This document shows, piece by piece, positions 3,929 to 15,973 of a DNA stretch of 38,215 bases. This DNA comes from a virus: the IMG/VR virus record IMGVR_UViG_3300028115_000055, positions 1 through 38,215 of that record; one strand, written 5' to 3'. Both the position numbers and the translations under genes were made by a program. Below the pieces are notes generated by a model. That model searched no databases and was not told where the DNA came from. It was given only the letters and a program-made list of their open reading frames with translations. Position 1 is the first letter of the stretch. Each line of letters starts with the position of its first letter.

Positions 3929-3956
3929 CTTATAGTTTAATTTTTAATATTTGCAA
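3929..3956 (-). promoter_or_regulatory. Candidate leftward promoter, leaderless configuration
   Basis: Read leftward: TTGCAA (3956-3951), 16-nt spacer, TATAAG (3934-3929), then 7 nt to the ATG at 3921. The -35 lies within the end of the lysozyme gene. A small inverted repeat, TAAACT...AGTTTA (3925-3939), covers the -10. In such A+T-rich DNA a chance match is possible. Confidence 0.4.
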
Positions 3957-4375
3957 CTTCTCATTGTTGAGGAAAGTTCGTTAGCACGTTCTGGAGTTTG
4001 TTCGGCCCAGACACTATCAAGCATTTCATCTGCGGCTGTATCCCAATCTTCTTCTTTTACAGCTTTTAAAGTGTTTTTAAATTTAGATACACCTGTCATG
4101 CCTAATTGAAATACCATCTCAATTATGACACATTTGGCTTTGTAGTTCATAGCTTGATTACCTAGTAATCTTTCAGCACCAACTACAGCATTAGTAAAAT
4201 CTAATTCAAAATAATCGTTTAATAATTTTTGAGAGTATGTATGTCCTTCTACAAAAGGGTCATCTTCTTTAACCAAATGACCGTACCCAATTGTGGCAAA
4301 ACCTAGACTATCTTTATAAATAGTATTTCTAAATCCTTCATGTTCTTTGATACGGTCTTTTAGTTCTTCGTACAT
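3944..4375 (-). CDS. Endolysin: T4-type lysozyme (GH24)
   Basis: 143 residues. It hydrolyses the beta-1,4 bonds of peptidoglycan at lysis. The N-terminus KEHEGFRNTIYKDSLGFATI, followed by GYGHL, reproduces the T4 lysozyme E-x8-D-x5-T catalytic arrangement as E13, D22 and T28. No signal peptide or anchor is visible, so release should depend on a holin; a candidate lies two genes upstream at 4518-4898. The start codon overlaps the stop of the 44-residue upstream gene (TAATG). The length is close to that of minimal GH24 phage lysozymes. Confidence 0.92.
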   Translation of the reverse strand: MYEELKDRIKEHEGFRNTIYKDSLGFATIGYGHLVKEDDPFVEGHTYSQKLLNDYFELDFTNAVVGAERLLGNQAMNYKAKCVIIEMVFQLGMTGVSKFKNTLKAVKEEDWDTAADEMLDSVWAEQTPERANELSSTMRSCKY

Positions 4376-5924: not shown

Positions 5925-6143
5925 TTATTTTTTCTTTTTGGAGTAATCCCTAGCCTTAATCATTTGAAGGTACTGTATGGCCTTCTCTATGTCTTGTAGG
6001 CCACCTTTTGAGCCGTGCCTACATATATATTTGATTGCCGCACCTTCTGCATATAGAAGTTTATTGGCATTAATAAATTTAGCAGGTTGGATAACCATTT
6101 TTTTGTAATGGTTACCCCCTACTTGTTTTTTATAAACACTCAT
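5925..6143 (-). CDS. DUF3310 family protein
   Basis: 72 residues from the ATG at 6143. The sequence VGGNHYKKMVIQPAKFINAN, then AEGAAIKYICRHGSKGGLQD and IEKAIQYLQ, is the DUF3310 signature: G.HY, a hydrophobic helix, KYI.R...KGG..D..KA..YL. The family is common in phages and has no established role, though it is often found near nucleotide or DNA metabolism genes. A longer reading from 6173 is possible, but the chosen ATG overlaps the upstream stop as TAATG. Confidence 0.85.
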   Translation of the reverse strand: MSVYKKQVGGNHYKKMVIQPAKFINANKLLYAEGAAIKYICRHGSKGGLQDIEKAIQYLQMIKARDYSKKKK

Positions 6144-7048
6144 TAGAATGATACATCCATGTAGTGAGAACAAAATTCATTGACACTACAATAATGCTGA
6201 CATCTAACGTCTTCACCTTTACGTTCTACAATAGCACAACCTTTACCTTCTACCATTTTTTCACCAACGATAAATTGTTTAGCTTGTTCTTTTGTAGGAA
6301 ATAAACGCCAAGCAGATTTTCTACCATCCTTCATAACAGCAAACTGATCTTCTTTACGCCATCTTTCTTTAGCTGTACACAAAGGTAGTTCCTTCATCTT
6401 CTCTGCGTCTTGGTGTAGTTTTATTCTAGCTTTAACATAATCTTCCTGTTGTTGATCTGACCACCTACGAATAGGTATCATTACAACTTGTTTTCTAGGA
6501 TAATTGTCTGATTGCATTACTCTTAATTTAGACCAATCTCGTAGTATAGCCATGATAGATAATGATTTAACTTTCAATTCTTTTTTATATCTAGTTAAAT
6601 CTTTTTGGTTTTTACGACATAGAAAATCAAGAACATTTAATTGTTGTTCCCATTCAACTTTACCATTTGTTAAAGCATCTAATGCTGACCAAGCTGAAGT
6701 AACTTTAAAATCTATAAGTTTACCGTCACCTGTAAGCAAATCAAAAGCACCAGATAATGTCCAACCGTTAGTGATGGTATCATCTTTATAGTACAATCTA
6801 CGTTCAGCTATATCACTAGCAACTTTTGCTCGTTCTATAATGTGGTGAACTGATTGGCCCAATAAAGAAAATATACGATCAGACACATCTTCTTTAATCA
6901 AATCATTATTTCTCATTTGCAAGACCCTAATTCTAGGGGGTGCAATCAAACGGGTAGTAGAGATGTCTGACCCACTACTATCATAGGGGTCATTCTTTAC
7001 AGCCCGTTCAATTACTTTTGGTAAGTTTGAGTTATTTGTGATAATCAT
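6143..7048 (-). CDS. PD-(D/E)XK nuclease with C-terminal Cys cluster (Cas4/RecB-like)
   Basis: 301 residues. Nuclease core: GQSVHHIIERA (H69, E72), LSGAFDLL (D103), LIDFKV (D113-x-K115) and a Q pair at 135-136, in the order of RecB/Cas4 family nucleases. Near the C-terminus, C283-x3-C287-x5-C293, with C271 upstream, resembles the iron-sulfur cluster ligands of Cas4 and AddB. It probably processes DNA ends in phage recombination or replication. It is coupled to the SSB-like gene upstream by a one-base overlap. No CRISPR genes are near. Confidence 0.82.
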   Translation of the reverse strand: MIITNNSNLPKVIERAVKNDPYDSSGSDISTTRLIAPPRIRVLQMRNNDLIKEDVSDRIFSLLGQSVHHIIERAKVASDIAERRLYYKDDTITNGWTLSGAFDLLTGDGKLIDFKVTSAWSALDALTNGKVEWEQQLNVLDFLCRKNQKDLTRYKKELKVKSLSIMAILRDWSKLRVMQSDNYPRKQVVMIPIRRWSDQQQEDYVKARIKLHQDAEKMKELPLCTAKERWRKEDQFAVMKDGRKSAWRLFPTKEQAKQFIVGEKMVEGKGCAIVERKGEDVRCQHYCSVNEFCSHYMDVSF

Positions 7049-7650
7049 TAAAATGGGATTGGGCTATCACCGACACTTGCACCATTACCTTCATCACCTT
7101 GATCTTGGTTCATGCCTTCCAACTCTTTTGATCTTAAAATAATGTTTCTAATACCTTCAGATAGATTATTAAAAACTTCTTTTTTACCATTTTGAAAATC
7201 CTCTAAACTAAACACTACTCCTTGAGTAATTTGTTCAGCAATTGGATCACCTTTTTTCATTGGCATTATAGATGATATTCTTGGTTTCCCATTCTTATCC
7301 ATAACATTCAATAAACAAGGTACACCAAGTAATTTAGAAATATCAAATGATTGTTTTTCTGCCTCACTAAATGCTCTACCTCTCCATGAAGTTAAATCAT
7401 TACCAAGATTAGATTTCTCATGTAATGATAACGTATAGAACTTACTGATTGTTAATGGTTGTCCTTCACTATTCAGTTCTTCTGGTGTTTCAAAGATAAT
7501 TAGAACTTGACGTTTCCAACTAACCTCACCGTTAAAATCTGATTTTTGTGTACCTAGATCAATAATCTTTACACATCTGGCTTTGTGAACGCCAACTGAT
7601 ACACTTGGATAACGTGGTGCATCTCCACTACCTGCTATTATACTTGTCAT
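7048..7650 (-). CDS. Single-stranded DNA-binding-like protein with acidic tail
   Basis: 200 residues. The core (PSVSVGVHKARCVKIIDLG, SWKRQVLIIFETPEE, GQPLTISKFYTLSL, LGVPCLLNVMDKNG) has the strand pattern of an OB-fold as in phage SSB-like proteins. The C-terminus is an acidic, flexible tail ending DSPIPF, close to the bacterial SSB tip D-D-I-P-F that recruits host replication proteins. It is first in the leftward operon, with a GGA ribosome site about 7 nt before ATG, and is co-transcribed with the nuclease. The SSB function is inferred from fold pattern and tail. Confidence 0.7.
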   Translation of the reverse strand: MTSIIAGSGDAPRYPSVSVGVHKARCVKIIDLGTQKSDFNGEVSWKRQVLIIFETPEELNSEGQPLTISKFYTLSLHEKSNLGNDLTSWRGRAFSEAEKQSFDISKLLGVPCLLNVMDKNGKPRISSIMPMKKGDPIAEQITQGVVFSLEDFQNGKKEVFNNLSEGIRNIILRSKELEGMNQDQGDEGNGASVGDSPIPF

Positions 7651-7691: not shown

Positions 7692-7711
7692 GTTATTTCA
7701 TACGAATTAAC
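7692..7711. promoter_or_regulatory. Candidate operator: 20-bp imperfect palindrome
   Basis: GTTATTTCATACGAATTAAC reads GTTAATTCGTATGAAATAAC on the other strand; 16 of 20 positions are symmetric. It covers the -10 and most of the spacer of the leftward promoter, so a bound regulator would block it. Confidence 0.45.
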
Positions 7712-7720
7712 TAAAGTCAA
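7692..7720 (-). promoter_or_regulatory. Leftward promoter of the SSB/nuclease/lysis operon
   Basis: Read leftward: TTGACT (7720-7715), 17-nt spacer, AATAAC (7697-7692). The predicted start is near 7685, giving a leader of about 35 nt with a GGA site before the ATG at 7650. The -35 lies only 7 bp from the -35 of the rightward promoter. Confidence 0.55.
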
Positions 7721-7726
7721 AGATTA

Positions 7727-7742
7727 ATTGACATATGTTAAT
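7727..7742. promoter_or_regulatory. Candidate operator, palindrome site 1
   Basis: ATTGACATATGTTAAT is symmetric at 14 of 16 positions and contains the TTGACA -35 of the rightward promoter. It matches the palindromes at 15089-15104 and 15921-15936 (shared form ATTrACwTAwGTTAAT). The adjacent HTH gene at 7962 is a natural candidate for the binding protein. Confidence 0.5.
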
Positions 7743-7755
7743 AAAAATGTATAAC
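7728..7755 (+). promoter_or_regulatory. Strong rightward promoter, leaderless configuration
   Basis: Consensus TTGACA (7728-7733), 16-nt spacer, TATAAC (7750-7755). The ATG at 7763 is 7 nt past the -10, at or next to the expected transcription start, with no Shine-Dalgarno. The message for the first gene should be leaderless. Confidence 0.65.
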
Positions 7756-7762
7756 TTTTTGC

Positions 7763-7975
7763 ATGGCTACAATATTACCAGAACTAATAAATGAACTTGA
7801 AGCAAAAGCTAAACGATTAGAAAAAGATGTTGTGAATATAGATAAGTCATCTGTAATTCCTCAACACACTAACAAAGCTGAAGCTATATTATCAACCACA
7901 AAAGAACTAATAGAAACTGAAGAAACAATGAAGTATCTATTAAGATTAAAGAGTATGTATTATGACCAATCTTAA
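7763..7975 (+). CDS. Small helical protein, first gene of the replication operon
   Basis: 70 residues, all-helical and coiled-coil-like (LPELINELEAKAKRLEKDVV and later KELIETEETMKYLLRLKSM). No recognised domain. It begins at the predicted transcription start of the strong rightward promoter and overlaps the HTH gene by 14 bp. It would be among the first products made in infection. The position is that of an early regulator or anti-repressor, but nothing in the sequence proves such a role. Confidence 0.6.
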   Translation: MATILPELINELEAKAKRLEKDVVNIDKSSVIPQHTNKAEAILSTTKELIETEETMKYLLRLKSMYYDQS

Positions 7976-8171
7976 AATAGCAATGGAACGAAAAAAAGAA
8001 ATCGTTAATCAATACGGTGGTAAAAATTTAGCTAGAATGTTAGGTATTTCACATCCAGCAGTATCTAAATGGAAAGTAATACCACCATTTAGAGCATATC
8101 AAATTGCAAAACTTGGTGATTTTGATATAGAATACATTAGACCAGATTTACAAATTGCGCCTTTAAGGTAG
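7962..8171 (+). CDS. YdaS/Cro-like HTH regulator
   Basis: 69 residues. GGKNLARMLGISHPAVSKWK is a helix-turn-helix with the second, recognition helix SHPAVSKWK. It is followed by IPPFRAYQIAKLGDFDIEYI and RPDL, the typical end of YdaS/Cro-like proteins (IP..r...i......i..LRPDL). It should bind operators in the adjacent divergent promoter region; the palindromes at 7692-7711 and 7727-7742 are candidates. A DUF1376 (YdaU-like) gene lies just downstream, so the order recalls the ydaS-ydaU segment of the Rac prophage. Confidence 0.8.
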   Translation: MTNLKIAMERKKEIVNQYGGKNLARMLGISHPAVSKWKVIPPFRAYQIAKLGDFDIEYIRPDLQIAPLR

Positions 8172-8390: not shown

Positions 8391-8474
8391 CCAACTGCAC
8401 ACAAGATACCCCTATTGACACCTATTTCTTTTTGGTTTAAAACAAAATTAACTAAACTCAAGGACAAAATTAAT

Positions 8475-15088: not shown

Positions 15089-15104
15089 ATTAACATAAGT
15101 TAAG
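15089..15104. promoter_or_regulatory. Candidate operator, palindrome site 2
   Basis: ATTAACATAAGTTAAG is symmetric at 12 of 16 positions and differs from the perfect palindrome at 15921-15936 at two. It lies immediately downstream of the -10 of the leftward promoter, over its predicted start. Confidence 0.45.
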
Positions 15105-15138: not shown

Positions 15139-15167
15139 TTGCATAAAAAAAAACTTTAGTTTATAAT
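15139..15167 (+). promoter_or_regulatory. Rightward promoter of the packaging operon, near-leaderless
   Basis: TTGCAT (15139-15144), 17-nt spacer, consensus TATAAT (15162-15167). The ATG of small terminase at 15177 lies 9 nt past the -10, with no Shine-Dalgarno, so the leader would be 0-4 nt. Confidence 0.6.
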
Positions 15168-15605: not shown

Positions 15606-15920
15606 GCCATTACTCCTCCATATCTCCACACACATAAGCATAGTACCTATAGTACGGTATAACCCTCATCACTTCAATTACCTGCGTATTATGGCTAGAA
15701 GAAGGATGTCCACACACACACACGCACTCTCTCAGCTTTGGCTCATGTGATGCGGTCTAGCTATTAATCACCCCTCCTTTGTTCTCTTTACCCTACATAC
15801 ACACACAGACACGGGATAAACATGGTGAGTAACGCCCGTGATTTGACCCCCCACCCCCCAAAACGCTATTTGTGTCATTAATCAATGGATACCTCCGCAA
15901 ACTCATGGGGTATATTTAGT

Positions 15921-15936
15921 ATTAACTTAAGTTAAT
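15921..15936. promoter_or_regulatory. Candidate operator, palindrome site 3 (perfect)
   Basis: ATTAACTTAAGTTAAT is a perfect 16-bp palindrome. It covers the -35-like TTAACT of the promoter candidate upstream of the terL operon and matches sites at 7727-7742 and 15089-15104. Confidence 0.6.
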
Positions 15937-15950
15937 AGGTTGCATATATA
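15922..15950 (+). promoter_or_regulatory. Candidate promoter of the terL operon
   Basis: TTAACT (15922-15927), 17-nt spacer, TATATA (15945-15950). An alternative is TTGCAT (15940-15945), 17 nt, TATTAG (15963-15968). The gene at 15974 has no Shine-Dalgarno. The match is weak in A+T-rich DNA, but the overlap with the palindrome adds support. Confidence 0.4.
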
Positions 15951-15973
15951 AAAAATTTAAACTATTAGTGCTT

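Follow-up and report, generated by a model that had tools for sequence, protein, structure and literature searches.

Does a palindrome that recurs at several promoter regions of one phage genome represent the operators of a single regulator, and what might such a regulator do at each of them? The question was raised by a virus record of 38,215 bases, which is analysed here over its whole length as the window, and in which one palindrome had been reported at 7727, 15089 and 15921. All three were confirmed at these coordinates; those at 7727 and 15921 match ATTRACWTAWGTTAAT exactly, and that at 15089 matches with one mismatch. The original prediction found no other good match, which had to be corrected since two further sites are present, one at 7706-7721, with a perfect inner core 21 bp from 7727, and one at 8447-8462, with one core mismatch and a position that is conserved in relatives. 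The window contains four perfect TTRAC-N4-GTYAA cores, all of them inside the three control regions that had been named.

Among annotated phages, the closest terL is that of Pelagibacter phage EXVC032P Baldr (79% identity), and the gene order of the window broadly agrees with the Baldr record. A leftward early operon includes an SSB-like gene, an exonuclease gene and a lysozyme gene, while a rightward operon includes p70, a Cro-like gene, a DUF1376 gene, a RepB-type primase and a helicase. Downstream are a leftward operon of small genes (the accessory operon), terS, and the late genes from terL on. The lysozyme gene (3944-4375) belongs to the leftward operon headed by the SSB-like gene, a position that implies an early promoter. 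Features of the early region are as follows.

6143-7048, minus strand: exonuclease gene (phrog_2139), following the SSB-like gene in the operon
7048-7650, minus strand: first gene of the leftward early operon, 200 aa, matching phrog_862, whose function is not known; 'SSB-like' is our own label for it
7706-7721, no strand: candidate operator O2, ATTAACTAAAGTCAAA, whose right half holds TTGACT on the minus strand, a -35-like hexamer of the leftward SSB-like/exonuclease operon
7727-7742, no strand: candidate operator O1, ATTGACATATGTTAAT, whose left half holds TTGACA, a predicted -35 of the rightward p70-cro operon
7728-7755, plus strand: predicted rightward early promoter, read from the sequence, with -35 TTGACA at 7728-7733 and -10 TATAAC at 7750-7755
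7763-7975, plus strand: p70, the 70-aa gene preceding cro, with a weak match to phrog_1667 (E 0.0013)
7962-8171, plus strand: cro, encoding a 69-aa helix-turn-helix (HTH) protein of the P22_Cro family (PF14549), the candidate binder for all operators

Because a loose consensus search (up to 3 mismatches) showed no excess over shuffled sequence, with 20 matches against a shuffle mean of 16.2 and at least 20 matches in 26 of 100 shuffles, the strict core was adopted. The chance level of the loose search speaks for a reading in which the palindromes are not operators but belong to promoters or recur by chance in AT-rich DNA, as does TTGAC, the -35 consensus, in the half-sites of O1 and O2. The inverted N4 arrangement, however, is specific: when spacings of 0-11 were compared in 15 related genomes or long contigs, N4 alone stood out, with 56 cores against 0-8. 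In addition, the accessory and late copies are conserved, though they are not the best-supported -35. That the sites are anything other than operators is therefore highly improbable, although the conservation of TTGAC at O1 and O2 might partly reflect that of a -35.

A matrix was built from the three sites at 7727, 15089 and 15921. At a score of at least 14, dinucleotide shuffles of the 15 genomes gave 0.09 matches per 38 kb against 3 in the window; these 3 are the training sites, and the independent test lies in the 14 other genomes. There, most top matches fall at orthologous places, the exceptions being G006:15480 (score 13.5), which lies elsewhere, G004, with no match of at least 12, and G007, with one. 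Two of three control pelagiphages also have one match of at least 12 each (HTVC011P, 13.8; HTVC019P, 16.9), so single strong matches do occur elsewhere.

Relatives were gathered by the SSB-like protein (44 loci), by TerL (80 of 145 kept) and by Cro (80 of 109 kept). The 56 perfect cores come from the 15 genomes or long contigs, 534.5 kb in all, and 52 of them fall in four control regions that make up 17.4 kb, or 3.3% of the sequence. Two others lie just outside the drawn stretches, at G005:206 (terS-terL stretch) and G013:28132 (accessory/terS region). A perfect core is found in the SSB-like/cro region of 15/15 genomes, in the accessory/terS region of 9/10 (10/10 with at most one mismatch), in the late region of 13/14, and within 350 bases past cro in 4/15 (12/15 with at most one mismatch). 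Counted over unique sequences, a perfect core is present in 54/61 SSB-like/cro, 42/48 pre-terS and 55/75 pre-terL regions, compared with 0, 0.2% and 0.5% in single-base shuffled copies of the same three regions. Some of the pre-terL regions without a perfect core were cut short, and a longer stretch shows the operator further up; in the terL relatives L112, L118, L124 and L125, the pre-terL stretch examined has no perfect core even when lengthened.

The last two stray cores, G006:32094 and G008:11024, appear upstream of other leftward genes. In L034, in L036 and at G006:32094, a leftward gene has apparently been inserted after cro with its own upstream copy of the operator, and it looks as if newcomers get wired into the regulon.

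The idea that one regulator acts across these control regions is thus supported by sequence comparison. The two outcomes that had been named as refuting it, a motif equally frequent in shuffled or coding sequence and a lack of conservation in relatives with the regulator, were both checked, and neither came out against it. The exact core is rare in shuffles and at other spacings, and in relatives that keep the regulator it is found at the same places, including 61/61 SSB-like/cro regions with at most one mismatch. On this basis, the set of sites is judged to be a conserved Cro-type regulon.

The candidate for the regulator is the 69-residue Cro. It matches P22_Cro (PF14549) with an E value of 1.1e-11 and 44.7 bits, above the curated cut-off of 30.2, and among solved structures the chain closest to it in sequence is that of P22 Cro (1RZS, E 0.0004). 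The AlphaFold model of Cro is of moderate confidence (mean pLDDT 74.9, compared with 45-50 for the other four models) and was left out of any fold search. Pfam scans covered 59 ORFs, selected by us from 151 ORFs of at least 40 aa, and Cro was the sole DNA-binding transcription regulator with a match among them. The cro gene is conserved in relatives, and the segment ISHPAVSKW, which we take to be the recognition helix, is invariant in 21 aligned Cro sequences. Among 49 distinct Cro sequences, this segment has one change in L011 (I to V) and one in L031, L032, L033 and L037 (V to I). This conservation fits the constancy of the operator half-sites. When the genome_contigs collection was scanned for Cro with two peptide patterns, 25 pattern matches were obtained and none was confirmed. 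In phages without this Cro (three pelagiphages and two Vibrio phages), there are 2 perfect cores in 192.5 kb, HTVC011P and HTVC019P being covered over 30 kb each, and relatives of this Cro were not found in the whole records of these five phages. Cro and the motif therefore occur together across the phages compared, as far as their sequences show, and Cro is very probably the binder of the operators.

Binding by some other protein, whether from the host (CtrA, for example) or encoded by the phage and not recognised as a regulator, appears improbable. CtrA, with the motif TTAA-N7-TTAA, binds and has been proposed to control some alphaproteobacterial phages (PMC9437464), and many small ORFs among the 59 scanned are without a Pfam match and could include an unknown DNA-binding protein. 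The CtrA motif, however, is not enriched: 50 copies were counted against 40-111 at the other spacings tested, 8 of 11 of which have more copies, and CtrA was rejected as the binder. Against this alternative also stand the rarity of the core in the three other pelagiphages (2 in 94.9 kb) and the standing of Cro as the only such regulator with a Pfam match.

If Cro is the binder, the position of each operator may indicate what binding does there. In the early region, unique SSB-like/cro regions contain three operators in 41/61 and two in 20/61 when cores with at most one mismatch are counted, and 83 of 102 distances between neighbours are 21-24 bp. A cluster of palindromic operators beside cro in a divergent early region, as in the family of P22 Cro, is found in 61/61 unique regions. 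A counterpart of O2 occupies the corresponding position in relatives, mostly at 21-24 bp from the adjacent operator. In a typical relative, the right core contains a -35-like TTGAC directed rightward and the middle core has a TTGAC of this kind on the opposite strand. Downstream of the right core, the -10 match is modest (mean 3.05 of 6 at a 17-bp spacer). The original prediction that the palindrome at 7727 overlaps the -35 of its promoter agrees with the predicted layout, as does the location of that at 15089 at the accessory promoter; that of 15921 is most likely off the -35.

The next two operators lie past cro and at the accessory operon.

8415-8443, plus strand: predicted second early promoter, with -35 TTGACA at 8415-8420, a 17-bp spacer and -10 TAAAAC at 8438-8443; a like layout is present in relatives
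8447-8462, no strand: candidate operator O4, ATTAACTAAACTCAAG, covering the predicted start site
15089-15104, no strand: candidate operator O5, ATTAACATAAGTTAAG, next to the -10 predicted for the leftward accessory operon
15139-15167, plus strand: predicted terS promoter, read from the sequence, with TTGCAT at 15139-15144, a 17-bp spacer and TATAAT at 15162-15167

The first base of O4 is 28 bp upstream of the ATG of the DUF1376 gene (8475). In relatives, the order is TTGAC, a -10-like hexamer and the operator, which starts 25-34 bp past the start of TTGAC (19 representatives). The -35 of this promoter matches the consensus at a mean of 5.7 of 6 in 19 representatives, a value biased upward because these representatives were selected for containing TTGAC. 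For the accessory operon, the predicted -35 is TTGACA at 15134-15129 on the minus strand. A TTGAC can be recognised in 15 of 19 representatives, and in these the -10 expected 17 bp past it overlaps or abuts the operator. O4 and O5 thus overlap or abut the -10 or +1 at variable offsets. The terS promoter is 35 bases beyond O5, a distance that varies in relatives. Since the early and accessory operators cover the predicted -35, -10 or +1, their geometry is that of a repressor, and repression at these promoters, given binding, is likely.

The layout at the late promoter is different.

15921-15936, no strand: candidate operator O6, the perfect palindrome ATTAACTTAAGTTAAT, just upstream of the predicted late promoter
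15940-15968, plus strand: predicted late promoter, with a weak -35 TTGCAT at 15940-15945, a 17-bp spacer and -10 TATTAG at 15963-15968

The palindrome at 15921 had been thought to overlap a -35-like element, and this part of the original prediction gave way to a better-supported -35, TTGCAT, which sits 3 bp downstream of the palindrome with its -10 17 bp on. The gap between operator and -35 was counted in 41 rows, with odd groups included, clustered to 22 representatives. It is 3 bp in 18 of the 22, with TTG in 16 and TAG in 2; one further representative has a 2-bp gap, and the layout is absent in three (L040, L045, L123). For the -10, 39 of 54 late rows were kept (those with a perfect core, L121 and L123 excluded) and clustered to 21. 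Of the 13 late rows that first lacked a perfect core, Baldr, L109, L110 and L119 have one in a separate comparison, and L064, L071, L083, L090 and L107 start at or near terL, so that the stretch is short or misplaced. Column conservation of the operator was set aside, the rows having been selected for a perfect core. In the hexamer 17 bases past the -35, T and A are each present in 17 of 21 representatives, and the observed match was reached by 0 of 2000 shuffles. A -35 inside the palindrome (TTAACT...TATATA) was rejected, the -10 match then being a mean of 2.67 of 6 compared with 3.33 at the kept offset; other offsets reach up to 3.14 in the same 21 representatives. Because the mean match alone is a modest signal, support for the -10 rests on the fixed T and A. 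The late -35 matches the consensus at a mean of 3.5 of 6 in the 19 representatives with the layout, which is weak beside the upward-biased 5.7 of 6 at the promoter past cro. A start-like codon, which coincides with the predicted start, lies 37-41 bases past the late operator in 36 of 37 rows, the exception being L045 (L039, L040, L121 and L123 were left out of this count). In the group of G005, L121, L123 and L126, the operator falls at the end of terS or shortly upstream of an ATG. Directly before the late operator, a conserved hairpin or terminator in the RNA was looked for in 19 sequences; the consensus fold energy was 0.0, and none is proposed.

A palindrome held at a fixed distance from a weak -35 suggests activation of the late promoter, for which, given binding, the chances are about even. 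The centre of the late operator is predicted at about -46.5. Activators usually bind at -41.5 or -42, roughly half a helical turn away, and contact with the polymerase is therefore not assured.

A different proposal is that Cro represses everywhere, the late promoter included, and that replication multiplies the operators (five here) and so titrates Cro away. P22 Cro, according to the P22 record, turns off early gene expression, and the presence of the same operator at early, accessory and late regions is what a common brake would have. In G004, G006, G007 and L102, a second, weaker operator-like site (TTGAAC-N4-GTTAAT) lies over the late -35, in G004 at 383 and 19 bp from the first, which suggests repression in these relatives. 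In the window and in most representatives, however, the palindrome is upstream of the late -35 and not over it, at a fixed distance. Such constancy would not be required of a pure brake, and it is not seen at O4 or O5, which counts against this proposal. It is distinctly possible rather than probable, and nearly as likely as a dual switch.

In the dual switch that we prefer, a single regulator, most likely the Cro encoded by the phage itself, has the palindromes as its operators, which together form an early-to-late switch; this chain as a whole comes only a little short of an even chance. The early promoters would fire first and yield Cro. Cro on O1 and O2 (with a third site in many relatives) and on O4 would then shut its own operon, and the same binding would silence both the second early promoter and the SSB-like/exonuclease operon that runs leftward, while Cro on O5 would silence the accessory operon. 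Just upstream of the weak late -35, it would most likely assist the host RNA polymerase in initiating transcription of the packaging and structural genes. The same operator would thus repress where it covers an early promoter and activate where it is 3 bp above the late -35. More tentatively, Cro may be a single master timer without a CI partner in an apparently virulent phage, the position of the operator deciding between repression and activation. No integrase, CI-type repressor or phage RNA polymerase was matched by Pfam in the 59 ORFs scanned, and the Baldr annotation includes neither a CI/c2 repressor nor an integrase; the partner repressor and integrase of a temperate CI/Cro switch were thus found in neither the Pfam matches nor that annotation. 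If this is true, the Cro gene would be acting alone, outside the CI/Cro lysogeny decision, and one 69-residue protein with the host polymerase would run the whole early-to-late programme of a pelagiphage group.

An operator cluster of the CI/Cro type is already known. P22 and lambda Cro share with the present case the Pfam family and about three palindromic operators with a 4-bp centre near cro, between divergent early promoters. The public record of P22 annotates three operators in O_R, all of them inside 66 bp. The half-sites of P22 O_R and O_L, AT-rich like those in the window, can be read as ATTnAAG around a 4-bp centre, resembling ATTRAC-N4 and one base longer. The window differs in the half-site itself (ATTRAC against ATTnAAG), in having no c2/CI-type repressor or integrase by Pfam, and in its extra operators after cro, at the accessory operon and at the late promoter.

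In phi29, p4 represses early promoters and activates a single poor late promoter (PMC3100819). The logic of one early protein with the host polymerase is shared with the present proposal, which here rests on geometry; p4, however, works with p6 in a multimeric complex, and the likeness proposed is one of logic. GIL01 gp6, a LexA-like protein, activates the late promoter P3 from a site overlapping the -35 (PMC6182141) and is likewise a small phage homologue of a repressor that turns on a late promoter. It belongs to another protein family, its phage is temperate and held by host LexA with gp7, and early repression is described as the work of LexA-gp7, not gp6 (PMC6182141). Alphaproteobacterial phages controlled by CtrA have TTAA-containing sites at their promoters (PMC9437464) and differ in spacing and half-site, the N7 spacing not being enriched here.

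In the titles and abstracts listed by full-text searches, no operator set or Cro regulon in pelagiphages was found, nor any account of early/late timing in phages of this type, and the word 'promoter' is absent from the main text of a pelagiphage genome survey (PMC9599517). A lone Cro whose operators extend, throughout a phage group, to accessory and late promoters is new as far as searched. Bacteria of the SAR11 group, the hosts of pelagiphages, rank among the most abundant in the ocean. What the analysis offers for gene timing in pelagiphages is a defined and conserved set of operators, together with a named protein as the candidate binder.

Two side observations were made. For the rightward early, terS and late promoters, transcription is predicted to begin on or within about 3 bases of an ATG (7763, 15177 and 15974, respectively); the early start adjoins its ATG, and the late start is the ATG of the gene preceding terL. 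Many relatives look alike at the early promoter in starting near the ATG. Since the predicted starts fall at ATGs, the early, terS and late mRNAs are likely to be leaderless or nearly so. Between terS and the gene before terL, about 315 bases (15606-15920) have no listed gene and contain CACACA runs and CCCCCCACCCCCC, both present in Baldr, and a stretch like TCCGCACAGCG recurs directly before the late operator in many relatives. The region at 15606-15920 is a candidate packaging site or upstream control element.
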